Assembly: GCA_905182555.1 (NCBI GenBank)
Contig: CAJJBX010000002.1
Coordinates: 62,001-126,000, forward strand
DNA length: 64,000 bases
DNA from: an uncultured Ilumatobacter sp.
GTDB lineage: Bacteria; Actinomycetota; Acidimicrobiia; Acidimicrobiales; Ilumatobacteraceae
Reading direction: 5' to 3'
Made by a program: the position numbers and the translations under genes
The notes under the pieces: generated by a model
Databases searched by the model: none
Seen by the model: only the letters and a program-made list of their open reading frames with translations
Told to the model about the DNA's origin: nothing
Shown here: in pieces, positions 57,779 to 63,006 of the stretch
Layout: the number at the start of each line of letters is the position of its first letter
Numbering within the stretch: position 1 is the stretch's first letter

Positions 57779-57898
57779 CCCGCAACCTGGCCCGCGCCAA
57801 CCAGACTCGCGTCAACCTGGTCTTTCGGAAGGGCTTGGGCAGACAGATGTGCGGGCCAATTACCGGTGGGTAGCTTGCGGGTTCTATCGTCAGGGGCG

Positions 57899-58985
57899 AT
57901 GCGCCCATCAAAAGACTTCTTCCGTCCGCTCGCCGTCGGGGCCCCTCAGCCAGTCCGCGAGATTCCGTTCCCGCCGAGCCGGATGATCCACTTCTTCCCG
58001 GCAGCAAACGCAAAGATGCGATCGAAGGTGCCCCAGATCGCGCCAACGGTCGACATCCTTCTGGCGAACCTCGAAGACGGCGTTCCTGCCGACCAGAAAG
58101 AAGCCGCCCGCGCCGGCCTGGTGGAGATCGCGCAAAGTCCCACATTCGCCACGGACTTCGGCGCAACCCAGTTCTGGACGAGGGTCAACAGCCTCGACTC
58201 GCCGTGGGGCCTCGACGACATCACCGCAGCCGTGCTCGAAGCTGGTGAGGCGCTCGACGTGATCATGATCCCGAAGGTCGAAGGGCCTGAGGACATCCAC
58301 TACGCCGACCGGTTGCTTGCACAACTGGAAGCAAAAGCCGGCTTAAAAAAGCCGTTGCTGATCCACGCGATCCTCGAAACTGCGCGAGGCATGGCCAATG
58401 TCGAAGAGATCTGCGCAGCCTCGCCTCGCATGCAGGGACTCTCCCTTGGCCCGGCCGACCTTGCTTGAAGACGGCGACGCATCCACCCGCGTCGGCGGCG
58501 GCCACCCTGGCTACCTCGTCCGAACCGACCCTCCCATGGTGACACGAGACGACGGCACAGCCGAGACCGATATCAACGCCGACCGCACCACGTACCAGCA
58601 GGACCTGTGGCACTACACGATTGCTCGCATGGTCGATGCCTGTGTGATGAACGGGATCCTCCCGTTCTACGGACCGTTTGGTGACATTAAGGACACCGTT
58701 GCCTGCGAAGACCAGTTCCGCAATGCCTACCTGCTCGGGTGCGTCGGCGCTTGGAGCCTGCACCCCGTCCAGATCGACGTCGCCAAGAAGGTGTTCAGCC
58801 CGGCCCCGGCCGATGTTGCGCACGCGCAGCGTGTGATCGAAGCCATGGGCGACGGGACGGGCGCACTGATGCTCGATGGCAAGATGGAAGACGACGCATC
58901 GGTGAAGCAGTGCCACGTCGTGGTCGAACTTGCCAAGGCACTTTCCGCCAGCGATGCCGACCTCGCCGCCAGCTACGGCTTCTGA
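57899..58985 (+). CDS. Malyl-CoA lyase-type HpcH/HpaI family protein (frameshifted)
   Basis: From ATG 57899 the first frame carries [26 protein letters not shown] with the metal-site Glu-Asp, [11 protein letters not shown] and LSLGPADLA. After an extra T near 58465 the second frame continues as [35 protein letters not shown] and [20 protein letters not shown]. The RVGGGHPGY and PFYGPFGD segments match L-malyl-CoA/beta-methylmalyl-CoA lyases. Restored length is about 361 residues. It would cleave or form malyl-CoA-type esters, as in the ethylmalonyl-CoA or 3-hydroxypropionate routes. The related CoA-ester lyase follows 13 bases later. Confidence 0.86.
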
Positions 58986-59983: not shown

Positions 59984-60510
59984 TCAGAGTGTCAGGGCAT
60001 CAAGAATCTGGTCGAACGCCACGTCGGCGTAGGTGAGCATCTCGTCGTCGGTGCGATCTTGGATGGGATGTGGGGTGAACACACGCGACACAGCGGGAAA
60101 GCCGAGCGCCGTCGATTGGGCCACGGCAGCATCGACAAACTGGTCGGAGGCGATGAACATCGACGGGATGCCACGCAGTTCGAGATCGTTGATGTCGTGC
60201 ACACTGCACGACGTGCAACTGCCTCAATCCGCCAAGGCTTCGATGACCACCTGGCATTCGGTGGCGATCTTGTGGCGAAGGTCGACAGGTGCTGGCTTGG
60301 CGAAGGTCGGTTTCATGTAGCGGTTGACGTTGGCGCCGATGCCGATCAGCCGTTCCTCGATCCGGTCGAGAAAATGTCGCCGCGCGGCTTGGAGATGTCG
60401 AGCAGTCCAACAGTCAAGCCTTCGAGTGACGCCGGGCGTGCCAGGCGTTCGCGCTCGACGAGCGTTCGCTCGCTGGTGGGATCCAAGATTGCCGAGTTGG
60501 CCATGCTCAT
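59984..60510 (-). CDS. UGSC-family selenoprotein with in-frame TGA (and one-base deletion)
   Basis: The restored product is 175 residues. It starts at ATG 60510 (MSMANSAILDPTSERTLVE), continues LLDISKPRGDIF, then after one missing base near 60370 LDRIEERLIGIGANVNRYMKP, TFAKPAPVDLRHKIATECQ, VVIEALAD, TGA, GSCTSCSVHDINDLELRG, IPSMFIASDQFVDAA and FTPHPIQDRTDDEMLTYAD to a TAA-type end at 59984. The TGA (60224-60226, residue 96) sits exactly at the U of the family-naming UGSC motif; Cys homologues have CGSC there. Sequence on both sides is in one frame and conserved. A hairpin follows the TGA. It is the last gene of an operon with a thioredoxin-domain fusion protein. Its function is unknown, probably thiol/selenol redox. 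Confidence 0.85.
60194..60212 (-). promoter_or_regulatory. SECIS-like hairpin after the UGA codon
   Basis: On the coding strand GTCGTGC, loop AGTGT and GCACGAC form a seven-pair stem with a five-base loop. The stem begins 12 bases and the loop 19 bases after the TGA, within the range of bacterial SECIS elements, and the loop contains GU as in SelB-binding loops. This is a hand-folded prediction. Confidence 0.5.
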
Positions 60511-60519
60511 CAGTCTTGT

Positions 60520-61983
60520 CTAGTACACAACGGGCCGGGTGACCGGCTTGGAGCCCTTGTCGCCGTTGACCCATCCGCCGATGATCTGGCTGAACAGGCC
60601 GGCACCGCCGCCTGCATAGGTGAGCATCAGGCCGCCAGGTCGGAATTTCGGCAGCGACTCGGCGGATGCAAACGCTTCGGGAACGCCCTCGGCGATTCCG
60701 TCGGCGCCACGAACCAGCTCGGCACCCGATCGGTTGAGATGGCTACTGATCTCGGCCACGATGCGTTCACGGTCCCAACCAGCGTCGGCGAACACGCGGG
60801 CGTGCTCGGGCCCCATGACGACGATTGCGTCGAACATCATGATCAGCTTGGGATGGTTGACACCCTGGAGCTTGAGTGCGAACGATTTGACGAGCGACTC
60901 GGGTTCACGGGATAGCTGGTCGACCATGCAATGTGGCCCTTCGCCGGCAAAAACTGTGAGGGCGTCGACACCATCGTCGAGGCCGTGTTCGCCTGCGAGC
61001 CGGCCGTACGGCGAAGTGTCGTCGGCTTCGGCGAAGCAGAACGAAATTTTTGCTGGGCTGCCGTGGGCGGCCCGGTCGACTTCACCGGGGCGACCGCCAC
61101 CGAAGTTGCGAATCACCAGCTGCAGCGCACGACCAATGGTGAGGTTGGCGCGGTTGCCCTGACCGAGCGCATTGCCGCCTGAGTTCATCCCAATTGCACG
61201 TGTGCCCGGGCCACTGCACACGATGACCGGCCCGACCGGCATTGTGGTGGCGAGCAGGCCGTGCATGTTGAACTCGTCGGTGCATGCCGCTCCGACGGCG
61301 GTCAAGACCCACGGCAGATACTCCGGCTTGCAGCCTGCCATCACCGCAGCGATCGCCACCTTTTCGACGGTGATTTCGACGAGGTCGGGCGGCACGGTTG
61401 CCACGATGTCTGATGGGGCTCGGGTGGTGCCGGCGAGCATTGCCATCACTCGTTCTTCGGTCGGCGGGACCACGGGCAGGCCATCGGTCCAACCGCGGTT
61501 GAACATCATCTCCACAGGGTCTTCAGCCGCAGCAACCTCAACTCGTCGAGCAGTGAGGACTGAACCTCCGAAACGCACTCGCAGTTCGTCGACGACGTCG
61601 GGGTCGACGCTCATCGACCCGCATCCGGGACGCATCGGGGGCAGATCGGGAGCGAGCGAGCTGACTCCGGTGAACGATTCCCACGCGGCGCGCGACCAGC
61701 CGATGGTCCGGTTGACTTCGACGCCGTTCTCGACCTTGATCAACGTCGGAACCGTCTCGATCTCATGGTGCCAGCTGACGAATAAGGACGTGTCGTCGAT
61801 CGCAGCTGGCGACTCGGGGAAACCCGGTTCGTCCTGGCAGTACACGGTGAGGCGCACGTTGTCGGCGAGTTGTTCAAGCACCGGAACGACTGTCTGACAG
61901 GTCTCACATTCTTGCTTGACCACGACAACGAAGCCGTCAGGAAGTACCGGGGCGGCGCCTGTGTTGTTGACAGGAAGGGTCAT
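60520..61983 (-). CDS. Thioredoxin-domain fusion protein, partner of the UGSC gene
   Basis: The 487-residue product has an N-terminal thioredoxin-like domain with a CxxC site (Cys26-Glu-Thr-Cys29 in KQECETCQTVVPVLEQL), the cis-Pro segment VPTLIKVENG near residue 90 and a short linker with RPGCGSM. The rest (about 150-487) is a conserved domain without a familiar name: NRGWTDGLPVVPPTEERV, VAIAAVMAGCKPEYLPWVL, GPVIVCSGPG, MNSGGNALGQGNRANLTIGR and AYAGGGAGLFSQIIGGW-like ends. The gene overlaps the upstream hydrolase by four bases and is nine bases before the UGSC gene. The fusion suggests that the thioredoxin site exchanges electrons with the selenoprotein. Confidence 0.75.
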   Translation of the reverse strand: MTLPVNNTGAAPVLPDGFVVVVKQECETCQTVVPVLEQLADNVRLTVYCQDEPGFPESPAAIDDTSLFVSWHHEIETVPTLIKVENGVEVNRTIGWSRAAWESFTGVSSLAPDLPPMRPGCGSMSVDPDVVDELRVRFGGSVLTARRVEVAAAEDPVEMMFNRGWTDGLPVVPPTEERVMAMLAGTTRAPSDIVATVPPDLVEITVEKVAIAAVMAGCKPEYLPWVLTAVGAACTDEFNMHGLLATTMPVGPVIVCSGPGTRAIGMNSGGNALGQGNRANLTIGRALQLVIRNFGGGRPGEVDRAAHGSPAKISFCFAEADDTSPYGRLAGEHGLDDGVDALTVFAGEGPHCMVDQLSREPESLVKSFALKLQGVNHPKLIMMFDAIVVMGPEHARVFADAGWDRERIVAEISSHLNRSGAELVRGADGIAEGVPEAFASAESLPKFRPGGLMLTYAGGGAGLFSQIIGGWVNGDKGSKPVTRPVVY

Positions 61984-62864
61984 GAGAGAAACTCCAAGAT
62001 CCGTTGGTTGATGGCGTCGGGTGTTTCGAGGTGCAAGAAGTGGCCAGCATTCCGAATGATCTCAATCTTGACGTGATTGCCGACCATGGAACGAGCCGAC
62101 TCAGCAACTTCGGCACCAATGCATCCGTCGTTCGCGCCGTGCAAGTACAACGTTGGCTGCGTCGGCACCGCTTGCGTGGCGGCTTGGATGCCATCGAGCG
62201 CCGGATCTCGATATCCGTCACCGAGTGCCGCGCGGTAGTAGCCGAGTGCCGCGGCGAGGTGCTCGGGCTCGCGCATCGCGTCCTTGATGGCGGGCAGATC
62301 GGCAGCAGCGTCGTACCCCGGGGACCAATCGCGCCAGATCATGTCGATGAAGGCGAAGTCGTCAGCCGGAACGACCATGTCGGCCAGACCGTGTTGAAAG
62401 AAGAACATGTACCAACTCTTTTTTAACTGTTCCGTGTTTGTGACGAATGCCAAACCCAGCGATGCGCCCGGTGGGACCGCCATCGCAACGACCCGACTCC
62501 AGCGTTCCGGCGCCGATGATGCGGCTCCGTAGGTAATGGGCGCCCCCCAATCGTGGCCAATGATGACAGCGCGCTGGTCGCCGCTGAAGTGTTCGTGAAG
62601 CGCATTCATGTCGTCCGACGATGCCCCGGTTTGGTAGGCGCCGTTCGTAGCGATACCGCTCGGCGCGTAGCCGCGAAGGAACGGAGCGACGACGCGAAAA
62701 CCGGCGTCGTCGAGGACTGGCATGAGGTGGCGCCACGAATGCGCTGAGTCAGGGAAGCCGTGAGCGCAGACGACGAGCGGACGTGAGTGGTCGTCGATCG
62801 ACGGTGACGTCAGGCAGGCCAACTCGACAGTGCCGAGCGAGACAGAGGTGAATGATTCCGACAT
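61980..62864 (-). CDS. Epoxide-hydrolase/haloalkane-dehalogenase-like alpha/beta hydrolase
   Basis: From ATG 62864 the 294-residue protein has HGFPDSAHSW (oxyanion region, residues 35-44), the nucleophile elbow GHDWGAPI with Asp105 in place of Ser, and a C-terminal NAGHFLHLETP with the catalytic His. An Asp nucleophile with GHDWG marks epoxide hydrolases and haloalkane dehalogenases. The HGFP oxyanion motif is typical of epoxide hydrolases. It is first in the operon with the thioredoxin fusion and UGSC genes. The frame opens 22 codons earlier, without support. Confidence 0.85.
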   Translation of the reverse strand: MSESFTSVSLGTVELACLTSPSIDDHSRPLVVCAHGFPDSAHSWRHLMPVLDDAGFRVVAPFLRGYAPSGIATNGAYQTGASSDDMNALHEHFSGDQRAVIIGHDWGAPITYGAASSAPERWSRVVAMAVPPGASLGLAFVTNTEQLKKSWYMFFFQHGLADMVVPADDFAFIDMIWRDWSPGYDAAADLPAIKDAMREPEHLAAALGYYRAALGDGYRDPALDGIQAATQAVPTQPTLYLHGANDGCIGAEVAESARSMVGNHVKIEIIRNAGHFLHLETPDAINQRILEFLS

Positions 62865-63006
62865 GCCGTCGAACGTAGCGGAGGCTGCTGTTACGAACGT
62901 CACCCCACGGTATTGACAGCGCAAGCGCACGAACCTCTAGTGTTTTTGCATCGGGGATCCGCGAAAAATTCATACTGCGCCATCTGGGGACGGCGACGGG
63001 TTTAAC

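Follow-up and report, generated by a model that had tools for sequence, protein, structure and literature searches.

A predicted UGSC-family selenoprotein gene with a conserved hairpin behind its UGA codon and a constant partner gene in an Ilumatobacter genome

On the minus strand of the window, the whole stretch of 64,000 nucleotides analysed here, there is a gene of the UGSC family. We consider it very probable, at roughly 90%, that it specifies a selenoprotein in which a hairpin directs decoding of an in-frame UGA, and that it forms an operon with a partner gene (Table 1). The putative selenoprotein, its operon and a natural fusion of the two proteins in another genome are all well supported by comparison of sequences. 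The window copy as sequenced lacks one base, and is unable to encode the full-length protein. The window lies on contig C2 of the host genome (G000; 2.56 Mb, 26 contigs, 72.7% complete).

Table 1. Coordinates of the UGSC locus, numbered within the window
Feature	Position	Strand	Description or basis
UGSC-family selenoprotein gene (predicted)	59984..60510	minus	Broken by a single missing base; open frames, PF24696/NF041046 profile scores
Sec codon (predicted), in-frame TGA	60224..60226	minus	TGA in 59/59 orthologous loci
SECIS-like element, apical hairpin	60194..60212	minus	8 bp, GUG loop; fold, synonymous constraint, pair counts
One-base deletion relative to orthologues	60364..60375	minus	Frame comparison with orthologues
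Partner gene, 487 aa	60520..61983	minus	Thioredoxin-like domain at the N terminus, with CETC at residues 26-29; C-terminal domain assigned to no Pfam family
Alpha/beta-hydrolase gene	61980..62930	minus	PF00561, 93.6 bits

The frame that begins with ATG covers the sequence as far as LLDISKPRGD. A base is missing at about position 60370, and the next frame continues to VVIEALAD, followed by the TGA and then by GSCTSCSVHD. The TGA is thus in frame between EALAD and GSCTSCSVHDINDLE, and the frame behind it is open for 79 residues to a stop codon at 59986-59984. The separate pieces of the gene cover positions 2-41, 42-92 and 103-171 of PF24696 consecutively, with the first and second scoring 23.3 and 24.6 bits alone, each slightly below the cut-off of 25. 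When the TGA is read as a residue, a profile search with 60376..59984 gives 142.4 bits for NF041046 (cut-off 125) and 117.2 bits for PF24696 (cut-off 25), above the threshold in both cases. Members of the UGSC family begin the xGSC motif with selenocysteine (Sec) or cysteine; here the corresponding codon is TGA, and in six relatives it is a Cys codon. An earlier note on this DNA had placed the gene in the UGSC family, and the profile scores confirm 60510..59984 as a member (PF24696/NF041046).

The TGA is kept in all the orthologous loci, several of which come from the same genomes; because it is present in every one, a chance origin is excluded. Among the UGSC matches listed family-wide that extend over most of the profile, all contain one TGA except G113:C327. 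An in-frame UGA in a family with Cys-coding relatives is what is looked for in a bacterial selenoprotein, and both are found.

A second hallmark of such genes is a SECIS hairpin directly after the UGA, and a conserved hairpin occupies this position. The predicted helix of the SECIS-like element reaches over about 60181-60226, with a geometry that we take to resemble the bSECIS model. Over 52 distinct sequences, normalised synonymous entropy averages 0.16 in the ten codons that follow the TGA, compared with 0.72 in the 93 others (Mann-Whitney p = 4e-6, a value that is only descriptive because the sequences are related). Pairing was counted in 67 distinct 40-mers from 149 Sec loci, duplicate genomes included. 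All seven outer pairs are present in 54 of these, where the loop is GTG in 52 and GTC and GTT in one each. At offsets 17/29, 54 of the 67 have G-C, five G-U and four A-U, the remainder being unpaired or other. On average 7.61 of the 8 pairs form in register, against 0.93 to 6.6 at shifts of -9 to +7. The six Cys-coding relatives form between 1 and 6 of the 8 pairs, and a pairing check of the paralogues L050, L177, L178 and L185 found no hairpin of the orthologue type. The window sequence alone folds unremarkably (z = -1.70, with 15 of 200 shuffles equally good). A ranking of in-frame TGAs across the window on open frames and GC3, which also gave hairpin energy, listed 25 codons, among them that at 60226-60224.

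Directly 5' of the TGA, all 52 distinct sequences use GAT for the Asp codon at 60227-60229 (minus strand), despite GC-rich codons being usual. This codon is perhaps part of the read-through context.

The host genome contains genes for tRNA-Sec, SelA, SelB and SelD, all of which are looked for in an organism that makes selenoproteins. The tRNA-Sec (64.2 bits, anticodon TCA) is on contig C11, where selA and selB are neighbours; selD is on contig C1, and has its own Sec codon within the active site HGAGUGCK. The earlier note had taken the gene to imply a Sec system in the host and had proposed a search for these four genes; their presence bears the implication out and speaks for the selenoprotein. 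We infer that SelA, SelB, SelD and tRNA-Sec would decode the UGA as selenocysteine by means of the hairpin just 3' to it. A standard gene finder terminates the frame at the TGA, as expected if it were a normal stop codon or an artefact of sequencing, but the TGA is shared by every orthologous locus, the synonymous sites downstream are nearly frozen and the sel genes are present in the genome. We have rejected that explanation, which has a negligible probability, and the earlier proposal of UGA-coded Sec at the first position of the motif is upheld.

The host has a second UGSC gene (L050, G000:C16:108389-108895), with one TGA and the motif UGSCTSG. Read by eye, the gene directly after it opens with a domain of the partner type (TDGLPVVIPAPDRV...VEKVATNAVMAGC) and has no thioredoxin part.

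The missing base had also been noted earlier as a lesion separate from the TGA, and this too holds. The ATG frame of the window copy shifts past KPRGD and reaches an early stop, so that the deletion is real in the present sequence. All 59 orthologous loci lack it, and each has an uninterrupted frame of 93 residues or more leading up to the same TGA codon. Loss of the protein in this strain through the deletion, leaving a pseudogene with an ancestral TGA and hairpin, would agree with that restriction to the window copy and with the presence of the second UGSC gene in the genome. Against this, dN/dS between the window copy and five orthologues of the same genus is 0.034-0.097, compared with 0.062-0.126 among those five, and the low ratio holds on both sides of the deletion. 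An old pseudogene is disfavoured by these values, and loss of the protein in this strain is on the whole unlikely. The low dN/dS indicates that selection acted until very recently, or that the deletion is an assembly error; from the sequence comparison we attribute it to the assembly or to a mutation of very recent date. A search of ten genomes of the genus matched six, the host included, and found no near-identical strain by which to judge the deletion, the best other match having 85% identity.

A CitE/HpcH-like gene about 1.5 kb away (57866-58985, plus strand) looks to be split by a second frameshift. Its open reading frame at 57866-58468 matches positions 1-155 of 221 of PF03328, right to the last residue, and the overlapping frame at 58398-58985 is without a profile match of its own. 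The split hints at assembly indel errors near the UGSC gene, without proving them, and in this respect counts against a pseudogene. Programmed frameshifting could in principle bypass the deletion, and there is a short T run at the site, but the orthologous loci are already in frame in 59 of 59 cases. Since none of them needs a shift there is no conserved frameshift signal, and we have rejected this very improbable mechanism.

The partner gene ends 9 bases before the start of the UGSC gene, and is itself overlapped by 4 bases by the hydrolase gene. Locus L086 has a hydrolase protein of 75% identity at the equivalent place. We examined the arrangement in 80 loci of public genomes, leaving uncounted those where a contig end was too near (8 for the partner and 16 for the hydrolase). 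The partner adjoins the UGSC gene on the upstream side in 68 of 72 testable loci, and the hydrolase precedes the partner in 26 of 64.

The N-terminal part of the partner gives a sub-threshold match to TIGR01068 (20.2 bits, cut-off 96.8; E = 4.9e-4) and matches thioredoxins in the PDB at E = 4.6e-4. The cysteines of its CETC motif, C26 and C29, are invariant in 22 sequences. Beyond the thioredoxin-like part no Pfam family scores above its cut-off, and a fold search found nothing at E <= 0.001 using a model with a pLDDT of just 70.9. In another Ilumatobacter genome a single frame (L178, G012:C1:632800-636400), with its own in-frame TGA, encodes a UGSC protein followed by a domain of the partner type, which shares 30% identity with the second domain of the partner across 263 columns. 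The accessible text of PMC2398784 already described a UGSC/Unknown_1 fusion in 2008. Because the second domain of the partner is found beside the paralogue L050 as well, and fused to UGSC in G012, it is a constant companion of UGSC.

In the family sample of 200 genomes we find UGSC in 142, tRNA-Sec in 135 and the partner in 146. UGSC and tRNA-Sec occur together in 119 genomes, UGSC alone in 23, tRNA-Sec alone in 16 and neither in 42; UGSC and the partner occur together in 137, UGSC alone in 5, the partner alone in 9 and neither in 49, and shared ancestry inflates test values for these co-occurrences. Partial UGSC matches without a TGA in G016 and G035, and the first piece of the window copy, were set aside. 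A deeper rescan of the 23 genomes with UGSC in which no tRNA-Sec had been found gave 0 of 23, with the positive control G113 detected. Of the 23, eighteen fall outside the strict quality class, through completeness under 90% or for another reason, and five are within that class and at least 90% complete. G023 (97% complete) and G040 (95%) have a TGA-coded UGSC gene with no tRNA-Sec found even on the deeper scan, which could be due to an assembly gap or to an unusual tRNA-Sec.

Within a sample of 296 genomes from the phylum there is a UGSC match in 24 and a tRNA-Sec match in 188. Compared by eye, all 18 genomes whose UGSC has a TGA also have tRNA-Sec; this count leaves out three with a strong match lacking a TGA (G298, G343 and G484) and three with a weak match (G330, G387 and G461). 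Two of the strong Cys-only genomes, G343 and G298, have no tRNA-Sec match, and the third, G484, has one. The earlier note called Sec systems uncommon in this group of actinobacteria, a view that the occurrence of tRNA-Sec in both samples does not support. The selenoprotein family to which the damaged-looking window copy belongs is a known one, and it is common in this lineage. In water samples, UGSC proteins rank among the most abundant selenoproteins, according to the accessible part of PMC2398784.

The gene for tRNA-Sec lies 26-142 bases from a partner match in at least 29 of the 135 genomes that have it (e.g. G058:C89), a lower bound that comes from just 30 partner places picked by eye on contigs with tRNA-Sec and measured from the ends of the matches. 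From the directions given in the tables, it points away from the partner, the two being head to head. In the genome of the window itself tRNA-Sec is on a different contig from the partner.

The structure predicted for the orthologue L054 (mean pLDDT 91.5) has five strands alternating with five helices, and the Sec (residue 90) sits just ahead of a helix. Its matches in the PDB are mostly Rossmann-like, with low TM scores of 0.30-0.57 (by query or shorter target), and thioredoxin is not among the 50 listed. A sequence search for solved relatives of UGSC returned none at E up to 1. In this model the predicted fold is Rossmann-like, and not the Trx fold that the accessible text of PMC2398784 proposes for UGSC.

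Around the Sec, UGSC recurrently gives sub-threshold matches to the models for selenoprotein B of the glycine, sarcosine and betaine reductases. With NCBIfam models at E up to 10, TIGR01917 matches 22 of 29 UGSC members in this region (best 2.1e-4) and the GrdF model 24 of 29 (best 1.4e-3). The best match of the GrdB/PrdB type is that of a Cys-type relative, L173, with E = 1.2e-6, and the PrdB model matches L170 at E = 0.0018. The window copy has sub-threshold matches of the Grd/Prd type at E = 0.012 and 0.0082. The cut-offs of the GrdB/PrdB families (TIGR01917, TIGR01918 and TIGR04483) are not reached by UGSC; for TIGR01917 the window copy scores 14.6 bits and the best relative 27.8, against 602.2 required. 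If the matches are ungapped, the Sec of UGSC falls at about position 346-347 of TIGR01917, and we take the Sec of GrdB to lie near position 350. No Grd/Prd match was found in 6 of 17 further relatives scanned (L041, L020, L050, L171, L185 and L175; L178 counted once, the window copy and SelD excluded), and none to Pfam GRDB among the UGSC sequences scanned against Pfam. An unrelated phosphorylase model also matches 17 of 29 UGSC members, with a best E of 5.3e-5. Taken as sequence similarity, the kinship of UGSC with GrdB and PrdB is suggestive.

We propose a redox enzyme of two components, with UGSC as its selenol subunit. The Sec would head a helix of a Rossmann-like fold, and its U-x-x-C-x-x-C motif would be a distant relative of the one in GrdB and PrdB. 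UGSC could then act as a small subunit like these, working with the second domain of the partner, which would provide the substrate side; the thioredoxin-like domain, where present, may reduce the Se-S bond. The partner-type gene beside L050, which has no thioredoxin domain, counts against the two-part scheme. Grd/Prd-like reductase chemistry of UGSC with its partner is a tentative proposal, somewhat less likely than not.

A general thiol or selenol oxidoreductase, antioxidant or detoxifying in role, would have a UxxC motif and a neighbour with a thioredoxin-like domain, and UGSC is treated as a redox protein in the accessible text of PMC2398784 and PMC13188914. A specific substrate is suggested instead by the constant pairing with a large and highly conserved second domain, by the fusion of UGSC to that domain and by the matches to GrdB/PrdB models. 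We place the general oxidoreductase a little short of even odds. More speculatively, and somewhat doubtfully, UGSC and its partner might constitute an undescribed selenium-dependent substrate reductase of planktonic Acidimicrobiia, a minimal cousin of glycine and proline reductases in which the partner itself contains the electron donor. In part of this lineage, where the tRNA-Sec gene adjoins the operon, the Sec system might then look retained chiefly to serve it.

The functions of such selenoproteins are largely uncharacterised, according to the accessible part of a 2026 review (PMC13188914). Through the constant partner domain, the natural fusion, the linkage to tRNA-Sec and the possible kinship with GrdB/PrdB, an uncharacterised redox protein becomes the subject of a hypothesis that can be tested. 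The locus also illustrates how a gene caller and one indel can together hide a selenoprotein.

The window copy resembles the known UGSC family (PF24696, NF041046; PMC2398784, as far as accessible) in passing the curated cut-off and in its UxxC Sec motif, and differs from it by the one-base deletion. With the selenoprotein B subunits of glycine, betaine and sarcosine reductase (GrdB, GrdH and GrdF) and with PrdB of D-proline reductase, UGSC has in common a UxxCxxC motif, described for GrdB in the accessible text of PMC13188914, where PrdB is homologous to GrdB, and the weak HMM matches around the Sec. Its scores nevertheless fall far under their cut-offs, the protein is shorter, and its neighbouring partner is a different one. 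The accessible literature searched on UGSC with glycine reductase or GrdB contains no statement of a kinship between them. The UGSC proteins of Geodermatophilaceae are likewise actinobacterial selenoproteins, but in the accessible text of PMC5330540 their Sec is coded by UAG and carried by a tRNA-Sec with the anticodon CUA, whereas in the host of the window the codon is UGA and the anticodon TCA.
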